Source: Aminiphilus circumscriptus DSM 16581 (lineage in GTDB: Bacteria > Synergistota > Synergistia > Synergistales > Aminiphilaceae). Taken from it: a DNA stretch of 64,000 nt. The stretch lies in assembly GCF_000526375.1 (NCBI RefSeq), contig NZ_JAFY01000005.1:186001-250000 (forward strand), written 5' to 3'. Position 1 is the stretch's first letter. Every line of letters starts with the position of its first letter. Shown one piece after another: positions 8,199-29,523 of the stretch. The translations under genes were made by a program, and so were the position numbers. The notes beneath the pieces were generated by a model. That model was not told where the DNA came from, ran no database searches, and saw nothing but the letters and a program-made list of their open reading frames with translations.

Positions 8199-9437
8199 TC
8201 ACGCCTCCGCCATGAGAAGGGCGAAGACCAGGGCTTCGTCGAGCATATGGGAGATCTCCGCGTATTCGTCGGGTTGGTGGGCGTTGTCGGCCTCCCGGGC
8301 CCAGACAACGGCGGGGATACCCCGAGCCCGAAAGTATGCGGCGCATGTTCCGCCCCCGATACCACCGATCCGAGGTTCCACGTTCAGCACCACCCGCAGG
8401 GCATCCTCCATGCGCCGGACGATAGGCGCTTCCCGGGACGTCGGCATCGCGGCCTGTTCTTTTTGAAGAAATTCCGTCCGCACGGACACACCGTAGCGTT
8501 CTTCGATCCTGCGGCGCACCTCGTCCACGACGGACAGAACCGACTCAAGTGGAACCGAAGGGAGCACACGGCAGTCGAAGCAGAACACTTCCCGACCGGG
8601 AACGGTGTTCACGTTGGGGACATTCGCGCTTCTTTTCGTGGGTTCGAAGGTCGAGACCGGCGGATTGAAGAGGATGTCTTCCTCGGGAAACGCCGCGTGG
8701 AGCGCTTCGTCGAGGGCGACGGAAAAGGCGTTTGCGGCGCGGCAGGCGTTTTTGCCGAGCTGGGGCATGCTGGCGTGCACCTGGACACCCTGAACGGTAA
8801 ACTGCATCCAGAGAATGGATTTCTCGGCGATCTCGATGAAATCGCCCCGCTCGTTGCCTCCGTCGGGGACGACGAGCAGATCCTCCGAGGAAAAGAGATT
8901 CCTGTCGAGAAGGTGTCGAATGCCGTGGACACTTCCCATTTCCTCGTCCGCCACGAAACAGAGGCAAACCTCCCTGCGGGGCGTCAGACCCAACCGCTTC
9001 AGTGCCACTGCGGCATAGAGACTCGCCGCCAATTCCTGACCGTTGTCGTTGCTGCCTCTGCCGTAGACGCGCTCCTCCGTGATCCTCGGGACGAAGGGAT
9101 CTCCGCTCCAGAGCCCCCGATCCCCCTCGGGAACGACGTCGAGATGCGTGACAAACCAGAGCCTCCCCGGCTCGCGTCCTGGAATGCGCACCACCAAATT
9201 GGGACGCATCACCGAGGGATTCACCTCATCGGGAAGATCGTACCGCTCGCAGGAACCGAAACCGAGTTCGGCGATTTTCTTCTCGAGCCACGCGGCCTTT
9301 TCCATCTCTCCCGTTCCGCCATCCCCGGGCGAGACGGCAGGACGAGACACGAGGGCACAGAGGGTCTCCACCATCTCCGCCCGAAGCTTCTGTACTTCTC
9401 CACGCAGCGGCGCGCACAGGCGCTGCATTTCCTCCAC
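8199..9437 (-). CDS. M20-family metallopeptidase / amidohydrolase
   Basis: Cytoplasmic di-zinc hydrolase of the M20 (ArgE/DapE/CPG2) superfamily; substrates are dipeptides or N-acyl amino acids and cannot be fixed from sequence. Metal ligands are visible: H98-x-D100 in THLDVVPEGD, D131 in GRGSNDNGQ, the catalytic Glu pair in DEEMGS (165-166) and the later Asp in VPDGGNERGD. The lid domain is in the middle (residues 190-300). Length 412. It starts with GTG at 9437, with GGGAGG 9 bases upstream. It follows pgsA by 40 bp and probably lies on the liv transcript. Proximity to an amino-acid importer fits a role in peptide or amino-acid catabolism (inference). Confidence 0.88.
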   Translation of the reverse strand: MEEMQRLCAPLRGEVQKLRAEMVETLCALVSRPAVSPGDGGTGEMEKAAWLEKKIAELGFGSCERYDLPDEVNPSVMRPNLVVRIPGREPGRLWFVTHLDVVPEGDRGLWSGDPFVPRITEERVYGRGSNDNGQELAASLYAAVALKRLGLTPRREVCLCFVADEEMGSVHGIRHLLDRNLFSSEDLLVVPDGGNERGDFIEIAEKSILWMQFTVQGVQVHASMPQLGKNACRAANAFSVALDEALHAAFPEEDILFNPPVSTFEPTKRSANVPNVNTVPGREVFCFDCRVLPSVPLESVLSVVDEVRRRIEERYGVSVRTEFLQKEQAAMPTSREAPIVRRMEDALRVVLNVEPRIGGIGGGTCAAYFRARGIPAVVWAREADNAHQPDEYAEISHMLDEALVFALLMAEA

Positions 9438-9477
9438 GCGAACATACCTCCCTTTTTCTGAACGGGTTTGTCGCTCA

Positions 9478-10056
9478 TCAGGCTCGGATGAGAAATTCCT
9501 TTCCCTTGACCAGGTAGTCCATGCCGGACCAGACGGTGAGAATCATGGCAATCCACATGGCGACGAGACCGCCGGGGAGGTTGAAGATCATGAGGCTGAT
9601 GGCGACGATCTGGCTCACCGTCTTCGCCTTGCCGCCACCGGAGGCGGCGATGACCACGCCCTCCGCGGCGGCGAGCATGCGCAGTCCGGTGACGATGAAT
9701 TCCCTGGAGACGATGACCACCACGATCCACGAGGGAAGGCGTTGCAGTTCCACGAGAGCCACCAGCGCCGCCGTGACAAGTATTTTATCCGCCAGAGGGT
9801 CGATGAACTTCCCCAGATTCGTGACAATCCCTTTTTTTCTCGCAATGTATCCGTCCGCCGTGTCGGTGAGGGCCGCGGCAATGAAGACGATCCCCGCGAG
9901 AAGGTCGCCGTAGCTCACGTCCACGCCGAGGGCGTCGAGAGACGTGACCTGCACGTTGATCTTCATGGTGAGAAAGACCATCACCAGGGGTGCGAGAAAC
10001 ACCCTGGAGAGACTCAGCAGATTCGGCAGATTCAGTGCGTTGCCGGAAGGCACCAT
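9478..10056 (-). CDS. pgsA: CDP-diacylglycerol-glycerol-3-phosphate 3-phosphatidyltransferase
   Basis: Inner-membrane enzyme that makes phosphatidylglycerol phosphate, the first committed step to phosphatidylglycerol and cardiolipin. The CDP-alcohol phosphatidyltransferase signature DG-x2-AR-x8-G-x3-D-x3-D is complete (DGYIARKKG, then GKFIDPLADK). Four or more hydrophobic segments and 192 residues fit PgsA. A GAGGAGG site lies 8 bases before the ATG. It starts 13 bp after livF ends, so it appears coupled to the liv genes although unrelated in function. Confidence 0.93.
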   Translation of the reverse strand: MVPSGNALNLPNLLSLSRVFLAPLVMVFLTMKINVQVTSLDALGVDVSYGDLLAGIVFIAAALTDTADGYIARKKGIVTNLGKFIDPLADKILVTAALVALVELQRLPSWIVVVIVSREFIVTGLRMLAAAEGVVIAASGGGKAKTVSQIVAISLMIFNLPGGLVAMWIAMILTVWSGMDYLVKGKEFLIRA

Positions 10057-10069
10057 CGCGTTTTCCTCC

Positions 10070-10774
10070 TCATCCTCCCAGATAGGCCTCGCGCACTCTG
10101 GGATCGGCGATGAGCTGCTCCCCCGTTCCTTCGAGAACGACGCTCCCTACTTCGAGGACATAGGCATAGTGGGCGATTTTGAGTGCCGCGTAGGCATTCT
10201 GCTCCACCAGGAGCACCGTCTTGCCCTCGCCGTTGATGGCGGCGATGATCTCGAAGACTTCGCGGACCAGAAGCGGTGCCAGCCCCAGAGAGGGTTCGTC
10301 CATCATGATGAGTTCAGGCCTGCTCATGAGCGCCCGCCCAAGGGCGAGCATCTGCTGCTCGCCTCCCGAGAGCGTTCCGCCTTTCTGCCAGGCACGCTCG
10401 CGAAGACGAGGAAATAGTTCGAAAACCCAGTCCATGTCGGAGCGGATACCCGCCGCATCGGTCCTCGCGTAGGCCCCCAGCTTCAGGTTCTCCTCCACGC
10501 TGAGCTGCGGAAAGATGCGCCGCCCCTCGGGAACCATGGCGATTCCGGCGCGGACGATGTGCTCCGGCGAACGATGGAGAATGTCCTCCTCCTTGTAGAG
10601 GATTCTTCCTTTCTTTTGACGTACGAGCCCCGCAATGGCCCGGAGAGTGCTGCTCTTGCCCGCGCCGTTGGCACCGATGAGCGTGACGATCTTCCCCTGG
10701 GGGACCTCGATGGAAATACCCTTGATGGCATGGATGCCCCCGTAATGGACGTGCAGATTCTCAATTCTAAGCAT
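10070..10774 (-). CDS. livF: Branched-chain amino-acid ABC transporter ATPase LivF
   Basis: One of two ATPases energising the LivHM permease. The 234-residue protein has Walker A GANGAGKSS, a Q-loop, the signature LSGGEQQML and Walker B ELIMMDEPSLGL, then the H-loop. The motif VLEVGSVVLEGTGEQL near the C-terminus is typical of LivF. Its ATG at 10774 lies inside the end of livG (8-nt overlap), indicating translational coupling. Confidence 0.95.
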   Translation of the reverse strand: MLRIENLHVHYGGIHAIKGISIEVPQGKIVTLIGANGAGKSSTLRAIAGLVRQKKGRILYKEEDILHRSPEHIVRAGIAMVPEGRRIFPQLSVEENLKLGAYARTDAAGIRSDMDWVFELFPRLRERAWQKGGTLSGGEQQMLALGRALMSRPELIMMDEPSLGLAPLLVREVFEIIAAINGEGKTVLLVEQNAYAALKIAHYAYVLEVGSVVLEGTGEQLIADPRVREAYLGG

Positions 10775-18235: not shown

Positions 18236-18275
18236 GGAAAAAGAAACGAGGACGGATTCGCGATCCGTCCTCATT
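18236..18275 (-). terminator. Terminator after rpsU
   Basis: A perfect 10-bp stem (arms 18248-18257 and 18263-18272, loop of 5) followed on the minus strand by GTTTCTTTTTCC. It lies about 60 bp after the rpsU stop and would end the long hrcA-to-rpsU operon. Confidence 0.85.
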
Positions 18276-18331
18276 CACTCGTCGTACAAAGGTGTCATCG
18301 AAAGAACACGGGGGAAACTGCCCCGAAAACG

Positions 18332-18514
18332 CTACGCCTTGGGGCTCTTGCGCGTCGCCGCAGCGCGTTTGCGCTTCTTGATCTCGCTCGGCTTCTCATA
18401 ATGTTCATGCTTACGGGCTTCACGAAGGACTCCGACTTTCTGCACCTCGCGCTTGAAGCGCCTCAGTGCATCATCAATGGATTCGTTTTCCCGACGAACA
18501 ACATGTGCTGCCAT
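18332..18514 (-). CDS. rpsU: 30S ribosomal protein S21
   Basis: Small basic ribosomal protein involved in initiation on natural mRNAs. The 60-residue protein reads [20 protein letters not shown] at the start, then [10 protein letters not shown], and ends with a Lys/Arg/Ala-rich tail. The frame is open further upstream, but AAGGGGGG before the ATG at 18514 and family length fix the start. It is the last gene before a strong terminator, 34 bp after the HIT-protein gene. Confidence 0.96.
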
Positions 18515-18548
18515 TCCCGTTCCCCCCCTTCTCCACCGCCACCAACAC

Positions 18549-18890
18549 TCAACCCGGAGGCCAGGAAAAACGACGCCCCGATAAAAGATGAACGTGAAGG
18601 TGGGGAATGGTCTGGCACGCCTCTTCGCCGCAATTGACGACGAGACGGTACCCCCTTTCCTCGAATCCGACCGCCCGCGCCGTCTCCACAACGGCACACA
18701 TGAGATGCCCCCACATTTCAGGGTCGTCACACTGCGCAGCGGAAGGAACGTGTTTTCTGGGAACCACGAGAACATGCCCGGGAGCGACAGGGTTGATGTC
18801 CCGAAAGGAAACGGTCCACTCGTCCTGGCGAATCACCTGCGCCGCAACCGCTCCTCGACAGATGCCGCAGAAGAGGCACATCTCGTTCAT
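18549..18890 (-). CDS. HIT-family nucleotide-binding protein
   Basis: Histidine-triad protein of 113 residues, HinT/Fhit-like, probably hydrolysing adenosine phosphoramidates or dinucleoside phosphates. The triad is H97-x-H99-x-H101 in PHLHVHLL. The N-terminal CLFCGICRG resembles the zinc knuckle of HinT-like proteins. [11 protein letters not shown] is a family block. I chose the start at 18890 (MNEMCLFC). It lies 34 bp after the J-domain gene and before rpsU. Confidence 0.93.
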
Positions 18891-18924
18891 TTTTTTTCCC
18901 CTCTCCTTCTGTAGCCCGTCCATT

Positions 18925-20037
18925 CTAACGGCAGAAAGCCCGCTCGACAAGAGCTTTTGCCCAGACCCGAACGGACGATGAGGGATGTTCTCTGAGCAAG
19001 CGTCGAAGCGCCGTCAGCACAAGAGGCGAAAGGGGACGTTCCGTACCGCTTCCGTTCTCTCCGGAACGCTTGAGAAGACGCAGAAGCGGCACGAGTACCT
19101 GTTCCTCGGAACGCCGGAGAAGCCTGAGCACCAAGCCTTCATCGAGGAGACAGGCGGTTTCCCGGGACCACACGACAAGAGCCTCTCCCACAACCATGGA
19201 AGAAGCGTGCGACAGAAAGGTACACAGAAACTCATTCCGCTCCGGCAGAACGTGCAGCCACTTGAGTGTATAAAGAGCCTGGCTCTCTCCGAGAGAGCGC
19301 GCCCTGGCCGACAGGACTGAAGCGAAACGCCTTCCCGGAGATGATTCGGGAGGAATTGCGTCGAGCAGGCGTCGTAGCTCCTCGTCCGAAAGAGTCGCGT
19401 CCGCGAGGAGCGCCTCGAAGGCTTCACAGACTCCCTTCGTCGCGATTTCCGGAAGAAGTGCGTCCACCGCAAGAGCCCGGACAAGAGGGTGGCGGCTCCG
19501 AAGCCGTTCCAAGTGAAGCGCGAGAACCGCGCCTTCCTCTTCCTCGTGCCTGGCGGCGCAAAACTCGCGCACCCGCTCCTCCGCCTCGGCGATGATTCCT
19601 GAGATCCGTCGTTCTCGCTGCTTCTCCCGGCGTTCCTCCCGCCGCAGCCGCTCCTGTTCTTCCGCGACGCGTTCCTCGGCTCGCTTTTTTCTGCTCTTTC
19701 GCCAGCTCTCCCAAGATTCCGCAGCCCTGGCCCAAAAAGAGGAATTTCCGGGATGGTTCTGGGTGGATGACCTTCCTTGGCCCGCTCCGTAGGTTCCCCC
19801 GGATCGTCGTCCTCCGCCTTGGGGGACAGCCGCTCCGTCGCGAGAGGCAATCTGCGTTTTCAACGTCATATAGGCGGAGGTGATCTCCTGAAAACGACGG
19901 GCGCTTTGAGGCCCCGCGACGTCGGGATGACAGGAACGGGCAAGATGCCGGAAAGCGGACTTCACCTCATCCCAGGAAGCATCCGGACGGAGCCCGAGCT
20001 TACGGAAGCTCGCGTGCAGTTCCACTCCGGAGTTCAT
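18925..20037 (-). CDS. J-domain protein with helical-repeat C-terminus
   Basis: Protein of 370 residues with an N-terminal J domain: helix II, HPD at 37-39 (SCHPDV) and helix III. It lacks the Gly/Phe and zinc regions of DnaJ. The middle (residues 95-150) is a highly charged Arg/Glu helix, probably coiled coil. The C-terminal 200 residues are Leu/Ala-rich helical repeats that resemble HEAT repeats. It overlaps the Hsp70-like gene by ATGA, so it is probably the dedicated co-chaperone of that protein. The client is unknown. Confidence 0.85.
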   Translation of the reverse strand: MNSGVELHASFRKLGLRPDASWDEVKSAFRHLARSCHPDVAGPQSARRFQEITSAYMTLKTQIASRDGAAVPQGGGRRSGGTYGAGQGRSSTQNHPGNSSFWARAAESWESWRKSRKKRAEERVAEEQERLRREERREKQRERRISGIIAEAEERVREFCAARHEEEEGAVLALHLERLRSRHPLVRALAVDALLPEIATKGVCEAFEALLADATLSDEELRRLLDAIPPESSPGRRFASVLSARARSLGESQALYTLKWLHVLPERNEFLCTFLSHASSMVVGEALVVWSRETACLLDEGLVLRLLRRSEEQVLVPLLRLLKRSGENGSGTERPLSPLVLTALRRLLREHPSSSVRVWAKALVERAFCR

Positions 20038-21614
20038 TCGTGCACCACCTTTTCCAGATCCTCAACCATATGTCGTAAAATGAGCAGGGCATCTTCGGAA
20101 ATTGCTCTCTCGTTCTTGAGAATCCGAACTTTGCCGAGAAGCACGGAGATCCGCCCCTGCTGCTCGGGGGAAAGCGCCAGGGAAAGACGCGCCAAGCGCC
20201 TTTCCAACGCAGGCAGATCCTCCCGGCAACGCGCATCCGCCGCCGCTCCTCCGGTGATGTCGAGCACCTCCGAGGTAATGATCCCCCCGCCCCGGCGAAA
20301 GACCTCCACCCGGAGGACACCTCCGGAGTCCACCAGGAAGTGCACTTCCACTTCCGCGCCCTTGACGTCCGCATCGACGTGCACGCTTCCGAGAAATCTG
20401 CGGGACCTTCCGCGCCGCTCCGTCTGTACCACCGAGACGGTGAATCCTCCCGATCCAATGGTCGCGAATCGTCTCGATGCGGACGCCGGAAGAGGCATTC
20501 CCTGTTCGAGGAGAACCACCACGCTTCCATCGGCAACTTCGACGCCGAGGTTGCCCGAGAGCACGTCGATGAGAAGGCGTTCTCCGCTCTGATAGGCACA
20601 CAAAGCAGCGCCGATGGCCACGGCTTCGTCGGGACACATGCGGAGATGATCCGGTTCGGCGACACCGGCGGCAAGGGCACGGCGCAAAAGGGGAATCCGA
20701 CTGCTCCCTCCCACGAGAAGCAATTTTTCCGGAGCATGACGCCGCCAAAGCTTCCGAACGAGCCCCACCACCTCCGCGATGGGAGGCTGTATAAGCGCTT
20801 CGAGCTGCTCCCGATCCACTTCACGGCAGACAGACTCTCCGGGGAAAAGCCCTCCCGGAGGATACCAGACAGCACGAAACGCATCGGAGAGAGTGATCTT
20901 CATCTGTTCCGCCTCGGCGAGAAGAACCGCCCAGCGGGGATCATCCCTGTCGGGTTTCTCCCCGGAGACGGAACTCCAGAGCCATTCGGCGAGGAGCACG
21001 TCGAGATCGGCGCCACCGAGGTCCCCACGACCGATGGAATCGATGACCTGCCACACCTGTCCTTCCCGCTCCACAACAGTGACATCCACCGTGCCCGCAC
21101 CAAAATCGAGCACGAGAAAACGGCCATCACCTCCAACGGCGAGAGCTGCGGCGGTGGGTTCGTTGACGATCTTCACCTCGGTAAATCCGGAGGTTTTGGC
21201 GACGCGCATCATGGCCGCCCTCTCGGGAAAGCTGAAATGCGCCGGAACGGCAAGGACACAGGACGTGACATACTCGCAGAGAAACGCCTCGGCATCCTCC
21301 CGGAGAAGCGTGAGAAGAGGCACCAAGAGTTCTTCCGCGCCGTACTCCTTGCGTCCGAGACGAACCCGCCACGTGGAGTCTCCCACGTGACGCTTCACGT
21401 TCCACCAGGCTTTCCTCGGCTCCCGGAGCGCAATCCTCGCGGCATCCTCGCCGGCGATCCAGCCCTGTGGGTCCGTCCGAGCCACGTAGGAGGGCGTACG
21501 AACATTGCCCCACCGGTTCGGGACGAGCACGGGCGCATTCGGTCTTTCGGGACGCGCCACCGCCGAAAGCGCGTATCGGGTTCCAAGGTCAATGCCCAGA
21601 ATCGGCGAACTCAT
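20034..21614 (-). CDS. Divergent Hsp70-like chaperone
   Basis: Actin-fold ATPase of 526 residues, distinct from the dnaK at 25.8-27.7 kb. Nucleotide-binding motifs are GIDLGTRYALSAV (DnaK has GTTNS), VLDFGAGTVDVTVVE (DnaK has GGGT) and LLVGGSSRIPLLR. The conserved Lys of the WNVKRHVGD segment is kept. [12 protein letters not shown] is intact. The substrate domain is shortened (residues 370-470) and the lid is a brief helical tail, without the acidic end of DnaK. I chose the start at 21614 for AGGAGG upstream. It is coupled to the J-protein gene and sits inside the hrcA operon, so it is likely heat-inducible (inference). Confidence 0.88.
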   Translation of the reverse strand: MSSPILGIDLGTRYALSAVARPERPNAPVLVPNRWGNVRTPSYVARTDPQGWIAGEDAARIALREPRKAWWNVKRHVGDSTWRVRLGRKEYGAEELLVPLLTLLREDAEAFLCEYVTSCVLAVPAHFSFPERAAMMRVAKTSGFTEVKIVNEPTAAALAVGGDGRFLVLDFGAGTVDVTVVEREGQVWQVIDSIGRGDLGGADLDVLLAEWLWSSVSGEKPDRDDPRWAVLLAEAEQMKITLSDAFRAVWYPPGGLFPGESVCREVDREQLEALIQPPIAEVVGLVRKLWRRHAPEKLLLVGGSSRIPLLRRALAAGVAEPDHLRMCPDEAVAIGAALCAYQSGERLLIDVLSGNLGVEVADGSVVVLLEQGMPLPASASRRFATIGSGGFTVSVVQTERRGRSRRFLGSVHVDADVKGAEVEVHFLVDSGGVLRVEVFRRGGGIITSEVLDITGGAAADARCREDLPALERRLARLSLALSPEQQGRISVLLGKVRILKNERAISEDALLILRHMVEDLEKVVHE

Positions 21615-21628
21615 GGGATCTCGCCTCC

Positions 21629-22996
21629 TCATTCGCCCCGTCTCGAAGGAAAACCACATTCCAAAACATCATTGTGAAGCAAATCCGCACGGATGGCAAT
21701 CTCCGAGCCGGGAAGCACGCCGGAAGGACACGAGGCGGCAAGAAAGTGTTCCGTAAGGCCCGAGGCGCGAAGGCCATCGTCGTCCTCCACGAGAATCCGA
21801 ACATTTCTCCCCACCCATTTCGCCATGGTACGCCGCAAAAGCTCTTTTCCCAACGCGAGTGTCTCCTCGCACCGTTCTCTCAGGACTGTCGGGGGAACTC
21901 TTCCGGGAAAGCGAGCCGCAGCGGTCCCCTCCCGGGGCGAAAAGGGAAACACATGCAGGCGGCCAAAGCGCATCTCCTCGAGAAAGCTCAGGGTTCTTCG
22001 AAACGCACCTTCGTCCTCTCCGGGAAATCCCACGAGGACATCCGTGCTGATGTGTACATCCTCTCCGAGGATGCGACGGATTCTTTCGACGATCCTGGCG
22101 AAGTTCTCCGGTGAGTATCCCCTCGCCATGCGCCACAGCACCTCCGCATCCCCACTCTGAAGCGGTATGTGCAGGTGAGGACAGAACGCAGGAATGTCCG
22201 CAAGCATTCGAAGCAATTCTTCGCTCGCGGAGAACGGTTCCAGGGAGCCGAAACGAATCCTCGAAATCCCCGTAATCCGGGCGAGCCTCCGTACCAGACC
22301 TCCCAATGCGAAAAGATCGGCGACGTCTCCGGAAGCACCGTATCGCCCGAGATGAACGCCAGTGAGGACAACCTCACGACATCCCGCTTCCGCAACGCTC
22401 GAGACCTCGCTCACGATGTCCGCCTCGGGGCGGCTTACCGGCTTGCCTCTCACGAAGGGAACGATACAGTAGCTGCAGAAATGATCGCATCCGTCCTGAA
22501 TCTTGACGAATGCTCTGGTGTGGGCAGTGGGGGCGGGAAGAAACAGGGAGTCCCAGGACTCGTCGGAACGAAGGTCGTCCACAAAAATCCGCGGCCATGC
22601 GGCAGCCACGACATGCTTTCCTCTACGCCGTCGGGCCAGTTCCTCTTCCACCAGGTCCGGAACGAGGTGCTTGCGCCGGTTTCCGACAAGGAGATCCGCT
22701 CCAAGTGCCTTCGCTCCTGCCGCGTCGCCCAGGCGCTGGGCCAAACATCCGCAGAGAACGAGACAGGCTTCGGGATTCTCCCGGCGGAGACGCCGGAGAA
22801 GCTGCTTCACCTTTCTATCCGCCTCGGCAGTGACAGTGCAGGAGACCACGATCGCCGCATCCAGCGGAGCCTCCTCGACCAACCGCGCTCCCCGGGCAAG
22901 AAACGCCGCAGCGAGGGCCTCTCCCTCGTACTGGTTGGTGCGGCAGCCGAGGGAACGCACCAGGATTCTCGGCCGTTCAGAGAGACAGGGCATCAT
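21629..22996 (-). CDS. mtaB: tRNA methylthiotransferase, MtaB type
   Basis: Radical-SAM methylthiotransferase that converts t6A37 to ms2t6A37 in tRNAs reading ANN codons. It has an N-terminal UPF0004 domain (SLGCRTNQYEGEAL, CTVT, CGCLAQR), a radical-SAM cluster in DGCDHFCSYCIVP, and a C-terminal TRAM domain. The block GVHLGRYG is characteristic of MtaB rather than MiaB or RimO. Length 455. The start overlaps the end of rsmE by 20 nt. Confidence 0.92.
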   Translation of the reverse strand: MMPCLSERPRILVRSLGCRTNQYEGEALAAAFLARGARLVEEAPLDAAIVVSCTVTAEADRKVKQLLRRLRRENPEACLVLCGCLAQRLGDAAGAKALGADLLVGNRRKHLVPDLVEEELARRRRGKHVVAAAWPRIFVDDLRSDESWDSLFLPAPTAHTRAFVKIQDGCDHFCSYCIVPFVRGKPVSRPEADIVSEVSSVAEAGCREVVLTGVHLGRYGASGDVADLFALGGLVRRLARITGISRIRFGSLEPFSASEELLRMLADIPAFCPHLHIPLQSGDAEVLWRMARGYSPENFARIVERIRRILGEDVHISTDVLVGFPGEDEGAFRRTLSFLEEMRFGRLHVFPFSPREGTAAARFPGRVPPTVLRERCEETLALGKELLRRTMAKWVGRNVRILVEDDDGLRASGLTEHFLAASCPSGVLPGSEIAIRADLLHNDVLECGFPSRRGE

Positions 22997-24596: not shown

Positions 24597-24635
24597 GCAA
24601 GAGGGAGGCCAAGCCTCCCTCTTGCCTCTTTTTTC
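24597..24635 (+). terminator. 13-bp hairpin with T-tract on the plus strand, between dnaJ and prmA
   Basis: Perfect stem (24597-24609 with 24613-24625, loop CAA) followed on the plus strand by CTCTTTTTT. It therefore looks like a terminator of antisense transcription. On the minus strand, the sense of dnaJ and prmA, the T-tract is missing, so it may act as a processing or attenuation hairpin between the chaperone genes and prmA. Confidence 0.55.
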
Positions 24636-24680: not shown

Positions 24681-25814
24681 CTATCCAAAAAAAGATTTCA
24701 GTTTGTCGAGGAAGCTTTCATTTTCCTTGACAGAGACATCCATTTCCTGGGCAAGCGCCTGGAGGAGCGCTCGCTGACGATCCGTCAAATCCCGAGGAAC
24801 TTCCACCGAGAGATGAACGACAAGATCGCCTCGTCCCTTGCCGCGCAGCCTCGGCATTCCCTTGCCGCGCAGCCGGAAGGTCTCTCCGGGCTGACTTCCC
24901 GGCGGAATGTCGAGCACTTCCTCACCGTCGAGGGTCTCGATGGGAATTTCGCACCCTAGGGCGGCCTGGGGAAACAGGACGGAAACCTTGGTGTGCAGCC
25001 TGTCCCCGTCGCGTTCGAAGCGGGGGTGTTCCCGCACACGTATCAGAAGGTAAAGGTCTCCGGGAGGTCCACCGTTGACTCCCGCCTCTCCCTCTCCAGT
25101 AATACGAAGCCTGAGTCCCGTATCCGCCCCGGGAGGAATGCGCACATCCAGCCGGTGGGACTGCCGGAGCACGCCGCTGCCGCTACAGGATTTGCACGGT
25201 GACGAAATGATTTTCCCCTTTCCTGCACACCGGGCGCAAGGTGTCACGGACGAGAATTGCCCGAAGGGGGTTCTCTGGACGTGCTCCACCTGGCCCCGTC
25301 CTCCGCAGGCGGGACACGTCTCTGGGGAAGTTCCCGGCTCCGCACCACTTCCTCCGCACCGTTTGCATCCCTCCCACCGGGGAATCGACACCTCTCTGAC
25401 CGCACCGGAAAAGGCTTCCTCCAGCGTGCATTCCAATTCCATCTCCAGATCGGAACCTCTCCGGGGAGCGGTGGAGGAGCGGCCCCGCCGCCCTCCACCA
25501 CCGAAGAAGCTGTCGAAGATATCTCCAAAGATGTCACCGAAGGGGCTCGTTCCGTCGAAGGGACTACCACCCTGGGGAATGTCGCCCACAAAACCGAACT
25601 GATCGTACTGAGCCCGCTTCTGGGGGTCGCTCAGGACCTCATAGGCCTCGTTGATTTCCTTGAATCGCTCCTCCGCCTCCCGATTTCCAGGGTTCGCATC
25701 GGGGTGAAACTTGCGGACGAACTTGCGGTAGGCCTTTTTGATGTCCTCAGTACTCGCCTCCCGGGGCACGTCCAATATCTTGTAGTAATCCTTGGTCTGT
25801 ACAGGCCCCGGCAT
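24681..25814 (-). CDS. dnaJ: Chaperone protein DnaJ
   Basis: Type I J-protein partner of DnaK, 377 residues. J domain with HPD at 37-39, Gly/Phe region at about 76-110, four CxxCxGxG zinc repeats ([32 protein letters not shown]), then the C-terminal substrate domains. It follows dnaK by 13 bp in the hrcA operon. Confidence 0.98.
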
Positions 25815-25827
25815 CTTTCGTCACTCC

Positions 25828-27657
25828 CTACGCCTCGCCCTTGTCCGAGAACTCCGCGTCCACCGTATCCCCCTGAGACTCGGAGGCACCCTGTCCCGGC
25901 GCCGCCTTCGCCGCATCGCCCTGAGGAGATTCCTGAGCATACAGCCGCTGCGCCAGAGGGTGCACCTCCGCAGTGAGTGCACTCAGCGCCTTCCGGATCG
26001 CCTCGGGATCGCTTCCCGAAGCGGCATTCTTGAGTGCCTCCAGGCCGGTTTGTATTTTGCCTTTCTCCTCGGGCGTGACCTTATCGCCCAGATCGCGGAG
26101 GAGCTTCTCCGTGTTGTACACGGTGCTGTCCGCCTCGTTCCTGGCTTCGGCAAGTTCCTTCTTTTTCCTGTCCGCGTCCTCGTTGCTCTCCGCCTCGTTC
26201 TTCATCCGCTCGATCTCTTCCTCGGAGAGCCGAGAGGACTGGATGGTGATGTGCTGACTTTTACCCGTGGCCTTGTCCTTGGCAGTGACGTTGAGGATGC
26301 CGTTCACGTCGATGTTGAAAGTCACCTCAATTTGAGGAACTCCCCTTGGTGCAGGGGGAATTCCGTCGAGGAAGAAACGCCCGAGACTCACGTTGTCCGC
26401 GGCCATGGCGCGCTCGCCCTGCAGGACATGCACCTCCACCTGCGTCTGGTTGTCCCCGGCGGTGGTGAAGATCTGGCTCTTGGAGACCGGAATGGCCGTG
26501 TTTCGTTCGATGATCTTCGTGAAGACCCCGCCCAATGTCTCGAGACCAAGCGAGAGAGGCGTCACATCCACGAGAACGATGTCCTTGTGCTCTCCCGCCA
26601 AAATCGCCGCCTGAATCGCGGCGCCCACGGCGACGCACTCGTCGGGGTTGATTCCCTTCGTAGGCTCCTTGCCGAGAAGTTCCCGAATCTTTTTCTGCAC
26701 CATGGGCATGCGCGTGGCACCTCCCACGAGGAGCACCTTGTCGATCTCCTGTGCAGTGAGCCCGGCATCGGAGAGCGCTCTGCGGGTAGGCTCCACGACA
26801 CGCTCCAGAAGACCCGCGGTCATCTCCTCGAAACGGGCCCGAGTGAGCGTCAGTTCCAGGTGCTTGGGACCGTTCTGATCCGCCGTAATGAACGGGAGAG
26901 AAATCGAGGTCTCGGGCATGGAGGACAGCTCTATCTTCGCTTTTTCCGCAGCCTCCCGAAGGCGTTGCATGGCCATCTTGTCCTTGCGGAGATCGATGCC
27001 GTCACTCTTGCGGAACTCCTCCACCATCCAGTCCACGATCTTCATGTCCCAGTCATCGCCGCCGAGGAGGTTGTCCCCCGATGTGGCGAGGACTTCGAAG
27101 ACTCCTTCTCCTACATCGAGGACGGACACGTCGAAGGTACCGCCGCCGAGATCGAAGACCAGGAGCTTGTGCTCCCCTTCCTTGTTCGCACCATAGGCAA
27201 GGGCCGCCGCCGTGGGTTCGTTGATGATGCGGAGCACTTCGAGCCCGGCGATGGCGCCGGCGTCCTTTGTCGCCTGGCGCTGGGCGTCCGTGAAATAGGC
27301 GGGAACAGTGATGACCGCCTTCGTGACGGGCTCGCCCAGATACTCCTCGGCATCGCGCTTCATTTTCTGGAGAATCATGGAGGAAATCTCCTGCGGCGTG
27401 TAGTACTTGTCATCAATGCGCACTTTGTAATCGGTACCCATTTTCCGCTTGATGGAGATCACCGTGCGCTCGGGGTTGACGATGGCCTGCCGCTTGGCGA
27501 GTTGCCCAACAAGCCGTTCCCCTTCTTTTGTGAACGCCACGACGGAAGGAGTGGTACGCATGCCCTCCGCATTGGCGATCACCGTTATGGCATCGCCTTC
27601 CTTAACTGCGATACAGCTGTTCGTGGTTCCCAGGTCTATTCCTACAACCTTTGCCAT
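25828..27657 (-). CDS. dnaK: Chaperone protein DnaK (Hsp70)
   Basis: Canonical Hsp70, 609 residues: [29 protein letters not shown], the [12 protein letters not shown] hinge, then the substrate domain ([19 protein letters not shown]) and a helical lid ending in the acidic [19 protein letters not shown] lies before the ATG. It comes 86 bp after grpE, across a hairpin, and is controlled by HrcA through the operon promoter. Confidence 0.99.
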
Positions 27658-27743: not shown

Positions 27744-28439
27744 TCACTCTTCCTCCGAATCGGAATCCGCCTGGAAGCGCCCCACGTGGACCTGCGCGGC
27801 CCGCAGGACTTTTCCGCCGAGAAGATATCCCTTCTGGAGTTCCTGCACAATCTGTCCATCCCTCGCGGGATCCTGCACGGGGACGAGCGCGACCGCTTCG
27901 TGCACGGCGGGATCGAATGCACCGTCGCAGGTGATGGCACTCACTCCCAATTCCTGGAGAGCGCCGAAAAACTGCTTCCGCACCATGGAAACGCCCTTCA
28001 GAAGGGGGTCGTCCGCCTGAGCGGCGGCAATCGCCCTGTCAAGATTATCGAGCACCGGGATGAGAAGCGTCACCGCACGCTCCGCCGCGAGTTCCCGAAG
28101 ACGTGCCGCATCGCGCTCCGTCCGTTGCCTGAAATTGTGAAAATCGGCGCGGAAACGGGCACTTTCCTCATTTTTTTCGGCAAGCTCCTTTTCCATCTCC
28201 TCCAGGAGCTTCTTGCGTGATTCCGCAAGGGCCTCCGCCTCATCGAGACGTCGCCGCAACACCTCCATTTCTTCCTGAAGCCCAGCCACACAGGCAGCCA
28301 GCTCCGCCCTGGTGGGGCCGCCACCCCGTCTTCCATGGACGTCCGTTCCTTCTCTGAGCTTTCCTTCCCCCCGCTCTTCCCCGGGAGAACGACATTCCCG
28401 AAGAAGAGCTTCGTCGCGCATTTTCGCGTCAGTAAACAT
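27744..28439 (-). CDS. grpE: Nucleotide-exchange factor GrpE
   Basis: DnaK nucleotide-exchange factor. A long N-terminal coiled coil (LQEEMEVLRRRLDEAEALAE onward) leads to FRADFHNFRQRTERD and a C-terminal beta domain with LLGGKVLRAAQVHVG (usually LLGDRVLRPA-x-V-x-V). Length 231 from the ATG at 28439, which has GAGGAGG upstream and overlaps the end of hrcA. Confidence 0.95.
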   Translation of the reverse strand: MFTDAKMRDEALLRECRSPGEERGEGKLREGTDVHGRRGGGPTRAELAACVAGLQEEMEVLRRRLDEAEALAESRKKLLEEMEKELAEKNEESARFRADFHNFRQRTERDAARLRELAAERAVTLLIPVLDNLDRAIAAAQADDPLLKGVSMVRKQFFGALQELGVSAITCDGAFDPAVHEAVALVPVQDPARDGQIVQELQKGYLLGGKVLRAAQVHVGRFQADSDSEEE

Positions 28440-29469
28440 GTCGTTGTTCCTCCTCACTTCCATCGTCGTCGCGCAGGCCTTCCAGAACCGTTTCAAGCAC
28501 GGCGATGGAGCTTTCGTAATTCATCCGAACCGGACCGATGAGACCGAGGATCGCCTTCCGTCCTCCCGTATTTGCCGTGGCAAGGACCACCGAACAGTCG
28601 TGCATGCGCTCCTCGGGATTTTCCTCCCCGATGGTGACCGTGAGCGTCCCGTTCAGCGCGCAATTATCCACGAGTTCCACGAGGGCCGACTCCTCTTCGA
28701 GAAGAGAAAATACCGCATGGAGTTTCCCCAGATCCTTGAAATCCGGCATTGCGAGCAAATGATGGGCGCCTCCACGGTAGAAACGAAAGGGTTGAGCCGA
28801 CAGGAGCCCATCCATCTCGGAAATGGCGGCGCGACAGTTTTCCTCTTTTTCCCGGAGTTCGTTCATCACATATTGGAGAAGGTCATTCCTGGCCTCATTC
28901 CATGTCCGCCCCGCCATGACCGTATTGATTCTCCTTGAAAGCGTTTCGAGTTCCTCCTGCCGAACCTCGCAGGGAAAGGAAATCATTTTGTGGTGCACAA
29001 GCCCGCCCTCGACGACGACAATGGCGAGCGCATGTGTACTGTCCATGCGCAGAAAATCCACCCGGAGCAGGCGAATCTCCTGAAAAGGCGCGAGGGCGGC
29101 GACGCTCACATATTGCGTCACTCTGGTCAGGAGTTGGGAAATGTAGGCGAGAGCCCCTTCCACGTCGCGTCGTTGCTCCCGCAAATCCGCAATCCACCGC
29201 TCCGCCTCGGGATGAGGCACACGACGGCGCTGAAGGATGGTGTCCACATACAACCTGTAGGCTCTGGATGTGGGGATTCTTCCCGCCGACGTATGCGGTT
29301 GGACCAGATACCCCAGCTCCTCGAGATCGGACATTTCATTCCTGATTGTCGCCGCGCTCCGCCCCGTGAGATACTTTTTCGAAAGCGTCCGGGAACCGAC
29401 AGGCTCTCCTGTCTGGATATAATCGTAGACGACGGCGAGGACAACCTCCAGTTGGCGTTCGGACAGCAT
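28429..29469 (-). CDS. hrcA: Heat-inducible transcription repressor HrcA
   Basis: Winged-helix repressor that binds CIRCE and depends on GroEL for folding. The N-terminal block reads LSERQLEVVLAVVYDYIQTG then EPVGSRTLSKKYL, and TIRNEMSDLEELGYLVQPHTSAGRIPT is the diagnostic region. Length 346. A CIRCE element lies 28 bp upstream of the start. First gene of a long operon. Confidence 0.98.
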   Translation of the reverse strand: MLSERQLEVVLAVVYDYIQTGEPVGSRTLSKKYLTGRSAATIRNEMSDLEELGYLVQPHTSAGRIPTSRAYRLYVDTILQRRRVPHPEAERWIADLREQRRDVEGALAYISQLLTRVTQYVSVAALAPFQEIRLLRVDFLRMDSTHALAIVVVEGGLVHHKMISFPCEVRQEELETLSRRINTVMAGRTWNEARNDLLQYVMNELREKEENCRAAISEMDGLLSAQPFRFYRGGAHHLLAMPDFKDLGKLHAVFSLLEEESALVELVDNCALNGTLTVTIGEENPEERMHDCSVVLATANTGGRKAILGLIGPVRMNYESSIAVLETVLEGLRDDDGSEEEQRHVY

Positions 29470-29496: not shown

Positions 29497-29523
29497 CTAG
29501 CACTCATTGGAGACGAGTGCCAG
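29497..29523 (-). promoter_or_regulatory. CIRCE operator (HrcA binding site)
   Basis: Plus strand CTAGCACTC-N9-GAGTGCCAG, an inverted repeat with 9-bp arms that matches the consensus TTAGCACTC-N9-GAGTGCTAA apart from its outer bases. It lies between the promoter and the hrcA start, as expected for autoregulation. Confidence 0.95.

Follow-up and report, generated by a model that had tools for sequence, protein, structure and literature searches.

A Divergent Hsp70 and J-Domain Protein Encoded in the Heat-Shock Operon of Aminiphilus circumscriptus: An Apparently Specialised Pair Conserved in Synergistota

Reviews count three kinds of prokaryotic Hsp70, namely DnaK, HscA and HscC, and give loss of the GrpE signature as a mark of HscA and HscC, both of which work without GrpE (PMC8215388, available portion). 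HscA, a specialised Hsp70 lacking the GrpE signature, acts with a dedicated class C J-protein, HscB (PMC8215388, same portion), and HscC is a short Hsp70, also without the signature, that has the partner J-proteins DjlB and DjlC and is paired with a J partner in Paracoccus too. A different arrangement occurs in GAP1-N2 conflict systems, where an Hsp70 consisting only of the nucleotide-binding domain stands beside an Hsp70-GrpE pair (PMC7159879, available portion). Two or more dnaK genes were reported for 17.4% of 23 Synergistetes genomes, in a survey whose accessible part does not describe the gene pair considered here (PMC11019930), and no published description of the pair was found in the open-licence literature. 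Herein, we report an Hsp70-like gene (H) and an adjoining J-protein gene (J) that constitute a real, conserved and apparently specialised Hsp70/J-domain-protein pair, to all appearances undescribed so far.

The pair lies in a 64,000-nucleotide stretch of the Aminiphilus circumscriptus DSM 16581 genome (3.2 Mb, 7 contigs; G000:C5:186001-250000), referred to below as the window, and all positions are those of the window. Labels such as f1 and g16 are our working codes for families and genera. On the minus strand, the genes follow one another as hrcA (28429..29469), grpE (27744..28496, start uncertain), dnaK (25828..27657), dnaJ (24681..25814), prmA, rsmE and mtaB (21629..22996), then H (20034-21614, 526 aa), J (18925-20037, 370 aa), a HIT-domain gene (18549..18893; PF01230, 85.3 bits) and rpsU (S21; 18332..18520, recognised from its sequence and as a conserved neighbour). 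We named dnaK, dnaJ and mtaB above NCBIfam cut-offs (TIGR02350, 907.6 bits against 822.55; TIGR02349, 433.5 against 377.2; TIGR01579, 367.5 against 357.05) and prmA and rsmE above Pfam cut-offs, while hrcA and grpE, both open frames, were named from their own sequence and syntenic matches rather than by a family search. An earlier sequence-only reading of this DNA had placed the pair directly downstream of this gene series, and the order is borne out by family cut-offs, sequence and synteny; the ATGA overlap of the H stop with the J start (20034..20037, minus strand), which it had also pointed out, agrees with the frames and coordinates. H starts at 21614, 14 nt past the mtaB stop (21629). In the host genome, DnaK is the sole other full-length Hsp70, and J-domain matches total three.

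Pfam HSP70 matched H with 202.8 bits over residues 5-445. From Pfam, the structure model and the alignment, a nucleotide-binding domain with the motifs GTRYA and DFGAGT (residues 1-345, 20580..21614) was delimited; the model and alignment placed after it a linker (LLIDV) with a beta-sandwich substrate-binding domain (SBD; residues 346-452, 20259..20579) and a short C-terminus of three helices that replaces the DnaK lid (residues 453-526 plus stop, 20034..20258), all on the minus strand. Neither H nor J received an above-cut-off NCBIfam name. As a DnaK, H scored 187.8 bits with TIGR02350 against the required 822.55 and 188 with PRK00290 against 648; as an HscA, it reached 177.8 bits with the curated model, whose cut-off is 708.55, and its neighbours are mtaB and the HIT-domain gene, with no isc genes. 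H shares domain order, catalytic residues, linker and fold with the DnaK of the same operon, but the two proteins are about 33% identical, and in H the GrpE signature is missing together with the lid's first half, the phosphate loops are altered and the substrate cleft is not conserved.

Residues were compared in E. coli DnaK numbering across 31 intact H relatives, which are the sequences of our intact-H model (A1) less one f9 row (L113). D8, T11, K70, E171, D194 and D201 were kept in 31/31, as were the adenine-site residues, and T199 in 29/31. The GTRYA motif represents the changes T12 to R and S14 to A, and the GAGT motif the change G197 to A. These had been singled out before as changed nucleotide motifs of an Hsp70-like ATPase, and because T12R is present in 29/31 and G197A in 26/31 relatives, they are family traits and not local noise. 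In the J-contact region, D393 and the linker residue L391 were kept in all 31 sequences, R167 is matched by R or K in 30, and two changes prevail, E217 to Q (28) and V389 to R (27). Positions 290-293 of the GrpE signature were gapped in 26-29 of the 31, and G292-P293-K294-H295 was kept in 15/15 Synergistota DnaKs compared. Judged by these residues, H is apparently a competent Hsp70 motor and would be expected to hydrolyse ATP, to bind J and, by analogy with HscA and HscC, to work independently of GrpE.

The substrate-binding domain of H had been described as short. In the structure model (pLDDT 87.8), the beta-sandwich is complete, with its strands at residues 347-450, and the shortened part is instead the lid: the alphaA-alphaB stretch, its first half, is missing from the alignment, and three short helices were modelled. 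Compared by hhalign, the H C-terminus showed no significant similarity to the lid bundle of DnaK (probability 0.8%, E 0.07). The model superimposed on ATP-bound DnaK (4b9q) with a Z of 41.4 and an rmsd of 2.6 A over 446 residues, and on Sse1/Hsp110 with a Z of 40.3 and an rmsd of 4.1. The resemblance to Sse1/Hsp110 and the docked ATP form of the model, the unconserved arch residues of the substrate cleft (M404 and A429), and the retention of the nucleotide-binding fold in reduced H forms that have dropped the substrate domain would all suit an Hsp110-like H, acting as a nucleotide-exchange factor or regulator of DnaK and not as a client-binding chaperone. We regard such a role as decidedly improbable, since the DnaK match is the closer one, the operon already holds GrpE, and linkage joins H with a J-protein instead of grpE, with an H-dnaK partial correlation of 0.10 in the mirror-tree analysis given below.

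J carries a J domain with HPD at residues 37-39 (PF00226, 44.6 bits over residues 13-61), and the HPD is intact in 74/74 aligned J sequences. Pfam found no zinc-finger or DnaJ_C match in J, so that J, with HPD and no G/F, zinc or DnaJ_C region, is a class C J-domain protein; the HPD and the missing G/F and zinc regions had been indicated by the sequence-only reading. The DnaJ of the operon differs in having these regions. The structure model (pLDDT 89.0, pTM 0.61) consists of the J domain (residues 3-68, 19834..20031), a disordered stretch, an 80-residue helix (residues 99-179, 19501..19743) and an ARM/HEAT-like solenoid of paired helices (residues 184-370 plus stop, 18925..19488), all on the minus strand, and the helical-repeat C-terminus proposed earlier is supported by this model. 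The closest solved folds were armadillo proteins, with beta-catenin the best (Z 14.5, rmsd 6.5, 201 residues), matches that show the general solenoid arrangement only, since models of this type commonly reach a Z of about 14. Foldseek returned no match for J at an E of 0.001 or better, and Pfam HEAT_2 scored 11.3 bits, under its cut-off of 27.7. H and J resemble HscA and HscB in joining a specialised Hsp70 without the GrpE signature to a dedicated class C J-protein (PMC8215388, available portion), but adjacent isc genes are missing and J is not HscB-like. They likewise resemble HscC with DjlB and DjlC in the short Hsp70, the lost GrpE signature and the partner J-protein, whereas J is a soluble solenoid protein and H forms its own clade without the HscC loop insertion, as described below.

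Model A1 was run over 389 genomes, 185 from Synergistota and 204 from outside the phylum. It reached at least 600 bits in 66 Synergistota genomes; in G110 and G037, H is truncated by contig ends, and two f9 genomes (G173, G174) scored 530-571 bits. The best score outside the phylum was 333 bits, which is at DnaK level, and H is therefore counted in 0/204 of the sampled outside genomes. Model A3, built for reduced H, added 45 Synergistota genomes (39/43 of g16, 4/4 of g17, G100 and G102), bringing some form of H to 115/185; J was present in 114/185 (model A2, E at most 1e-20). Both proteins occurred together in 107 of the 185 genomes, H only in 8, J only in 7 and neither in 63, for which the Fisher p is tiny, although this value ignores kinship among genomes. 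In at least three H-only genomes (G035, G097, G110), the H gene is truncated or stops where the contig does. J occurs without any H in G043, G046, G055, G103 and G104, and in g16 it is still present in genomes whose H is ATPase-dead by sequence. Plasmids from outside the phylum, searched with the window H, yielded nothing beyond proteins of DnaK or HscC type, at 33% identity or less, and with the window J one J domain. A J-HEAT model built from f11 gave no joint J and HEAT match in the 204 outside genomes, which is weak evidence of absence because the model misses most Synergistota J, the window's included. The pair is thus present in close relatives and across the phylum, a distribution on which the earlier reading had left its case to depend, and to judge from these searches it seems confined to Synergistota.

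The position of H was followed in 81 loci. In 73 of these mtaB lies directly upstream, in 6 (f3, f9) about 1.0-1.1 kb upstream, and in 2 it was not found (L098, and L120, whose contig ends inside H). The gene between mtaB and H, read in 3 of the 6 loci, encodes a branched-polyamine synthase of BpsA type (303.6 and 319.8 bits in the 2 loci tested). As a side feature, genes of this type thus stand inside the chaperone operon of f3 and f9 (L107, L110, L113, between mtaB and H) and of f11 (L121:6310-7365, L122:9589-10656). In G116, both members of the pair are cleanly missing, and mtaB is followed directly by the HIT-domain gene and rpsU. SBD-bearing H had J adjacent in 61/63 loci (exceptions L098 and L099) and SBD-less H in 0/11, a count that omits the 7/81 loci lacking flanking room and in which L115 was labelled full by score though it has no substrate domain, and L120 was labelled '?'. 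The 61 linked loci include two f9 loci with a dead H and a J-domain-only partner of 140 aa. Since the tree requires only that the SBD was lost at least twice, the association of SBD loss with J unlinking rests on few events. The neighbours of J in unlinked genomes vary, and no client candidate emerged from them. Elsewhere in g16 (L129:9528-10199, L174:5584-6210), J is followed by a conserved protein of 208-223 aa that looks secreted; the one tested had no Pfam match.

Reduced H proteins of g16, g17, g23 and g25 have 292-436 aa, with the nucleotide-binding fold fused directly to the C-terminal helices and no beta-sandwich. They are still placed after mtaB, and 0/14 rows keep all seven catalytic positions checked, as is also the case for the full-length f9 row. 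At the level of single loci, g16 (L177-L184) and g17 (L124, L126, L185, L186) have an Hsp70 remnant of 290-390 aa after mtaB with a broken ATPase site, and f9 L113 has a full-length H (8241-9821) with catalytic residues lost and its 140 aa partner at 9793-10215. The GAP1-N2 systems (PMC7159879, available portion) are similar in holding an Hsp70 without a peptide-binding domain beside chaperone genes, but their neighbourhood is another one, their GTPase is absent here, and the form lacking the SBD in g16 and g17 is derived from a complete H.

Selection was estimated against a congener (G017) whose H is 95% identical to the window H, giving dN/dS values of 0.085 for H, 0.115 for J, 0.052 for dnaK and 0.173 for mtaB. 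Phylum-wide presence together with the values for H and J puts the pair far beyond chance. The reduced forms gave 0.19-0.22 (three of g16) and 0.22-0.31 (three of g17), and f9 H gave 0.22, which indicates that they remain under purifying selection. These values bear on a reading in which J serves DnaK as a client adaptor, H being a dnaK duplicate in decay that does little or nothing. The HPD that J retains even in genomes with H absent or ATPase-dead, and the lost catalytic residues of g16, g17, g23, g25 and f9, would fit such decay; we nevertheless find it unlikely, for most lineages retain every catalytic residue of H (31/31) under the low dN/dS seen in the window, SBD-less H still evolves at about 0.19-0.31 and persists in 39/43 g16 genomes, and H and J disappear together. 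In a mirror-tree of 37/41 loci (L080, L083, L105 and L149 left out), the H-J distance correlation given four neighbour genes had a partial r of 0.615, close to the 0.65 of dnaK-dnaJ, but H-prmA reached 0.57 despite no expected interaction, making the H-J rate correlation weak evidence.

A palindrome resembling the HrcA operator CIRCE, whose consensus we take to be TTAGCACTC-N9-GAGTGCTAA, lies just upstream of hrcA at 29497..29523, with 3 mismatches to that consensus and an exact inner core. One CIRCE-like site was found here against 0 in 100 shuffles; exact cores also occur at C7:233302 of the same genome and in 37 loci retrieved from other genomes. Intergenic gaps in the operon are short, and the only terminator-like hairpin, with a T-run, follows rpsU (18244..18276, minus strand) and probably marks the operon end, such sites in the region being near the shuffled mean. 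Between dnaJ and prmA, a 13-bp inverted repeat without mismatches (24597..24625) forms a hairpin that lacks an evident U-run on the minus strand; it is a possible processing or partial termination site and might separate H-J from transcription begun at the CIRCE promoter. The suggestion that HrcA co-regulates the pair is accordingly supported in an indirect way by the operator at hrcA, the exact cores in other genomes, the short gaps and the single terminator, and is tempered by this repeat: co-regulation with the heat-shock operon is likely from the layout of the DNA, and H and J would then be heat-induced.

In phylogenetic analysis, H formed a single, long-branched clade (100/100), apart from DnaK and HscC, and so does not fall within a known subgroup of those compared. 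The final tree leaves out EcYegD, EcHscA, L194 and L195, and hence HscA; an earlier tree with EcYegD, on a very long branch, and a gapped window row likewise recovered H as monophyletic. One weakly supported branch (80/55) puts HscC on the same side as H, so that the two may be sisters. As candidate relatives, H and HscC occupied separate clades in the tree, and the loop L1,2 insertion of 4-8 residues that is present in EcHscC was absent from the four H rows examined. That H/J is a diverged HscC/DjlC-type system would be compatible with the weak branch, with the GrpE signature missing from both and with the J partners of HscC. It is very improbable, however, in view of the separate H clade, the missing insertion, and the position and J partner of H, which match a DnaK-like copy in the deeper Synergistota branch f11.

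In f11, the order bpsA-Hsp70-J-HIT-rpsU was found at L121 and L122, and Hsp70-J-HIT-rpsU was seen at L123; at L121 the slot is followed by hsp20 and an HtrA-like protease. The f11 slot Hsp70, of 570 aa, shares 58-59% identity with the window DnaK and retains most of the lid and, in the one row examined, the GrpE loop. DnaK N13 is Y in all three f11 slot proteins and in 19/31 H. The adjoining f11 J is a clear J-HEAT protein (HEAT_2, 90.5 bits against a cut-off of 27.7), and its alignment with Synergistales J profiles extends past the J domain (probability 99.2). We infer from position that H and the f11 slot Hsp70 are the same gene. Because the f11 slot holds a DnaK-like Hsp70 (58%) beside a J-HEAT protein, H probably descends from a diverged dnaK copy, which the trees neither prove nor reject: a constraint joining H with the f11 copy was neither rejected nor favoured (p 0.296), and one adding Synergistota DnaK gave p 0.173. 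One more DnaK paralogue (627-635 aa), separate from H, was observed in f10 (L187, L188) and f5 (L189, L190), adjoining a DnaJ-like gene in L187 and L188.

Taken together, we favour, with rather more belief than doubt, a dedicated, Synergistota-specific Hsp70/J-domain-protein machine that is GrpE-independent, has the J solenoid as its client adaptor and derives H from a dnaK copy. H and J would be made together with the heat-shock operon; the ARM/HEAT-like solenoid would bind a particular client or site and hand the client to H, and the J domain would trigger ATP hydrolysis. H may then engage the client through its lid-poor beta-sandwich with weak clamping and reset without GrpE, both as for HscA and HscC. 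Specialisation of H/J is supported by the GrpE-signature loss, the co-occurrence and the SBD loss where J is unlinked, and a divergent pair kept together upholds the dedicated machine proposed from the sequence; a client distinct from misfolded protein in general, the second half of that proposal, is what such a machine may be expected to serve. An ancestral dnaK copy beside a J-HEAT gene would have specialised into H from the phylum's ancestor onward. As J persists in five genomes without H and in g16 with an ATPase-dead H, it may work with DnaK, and its retained HPD suggests that DnaK takes over from H in those lineages. More tentatively, and with the balance tilting against it, H/J may be a fourth, phylum-specific Hsp70 kind in which the conserved activity resides in the J solenoid and H is a replaceable motor, part of the full machine in most lineages and exchanged for DnaK in others, where H would be a selected nucleotide-fold scaffold without substrate domain or catalytic site.

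Synergistota offer living intermediates: a DnaK-like form in f11, a lid-poor form in most of the phylum and a form without the substrate domain on at least two branches. With this series one could test by what steps an Hsp70 comes to serve one J-protein exclusively, at what stage GrpE becomes dispensable, and which of the two partners, J-protein or Hsp70, bears the specific function.
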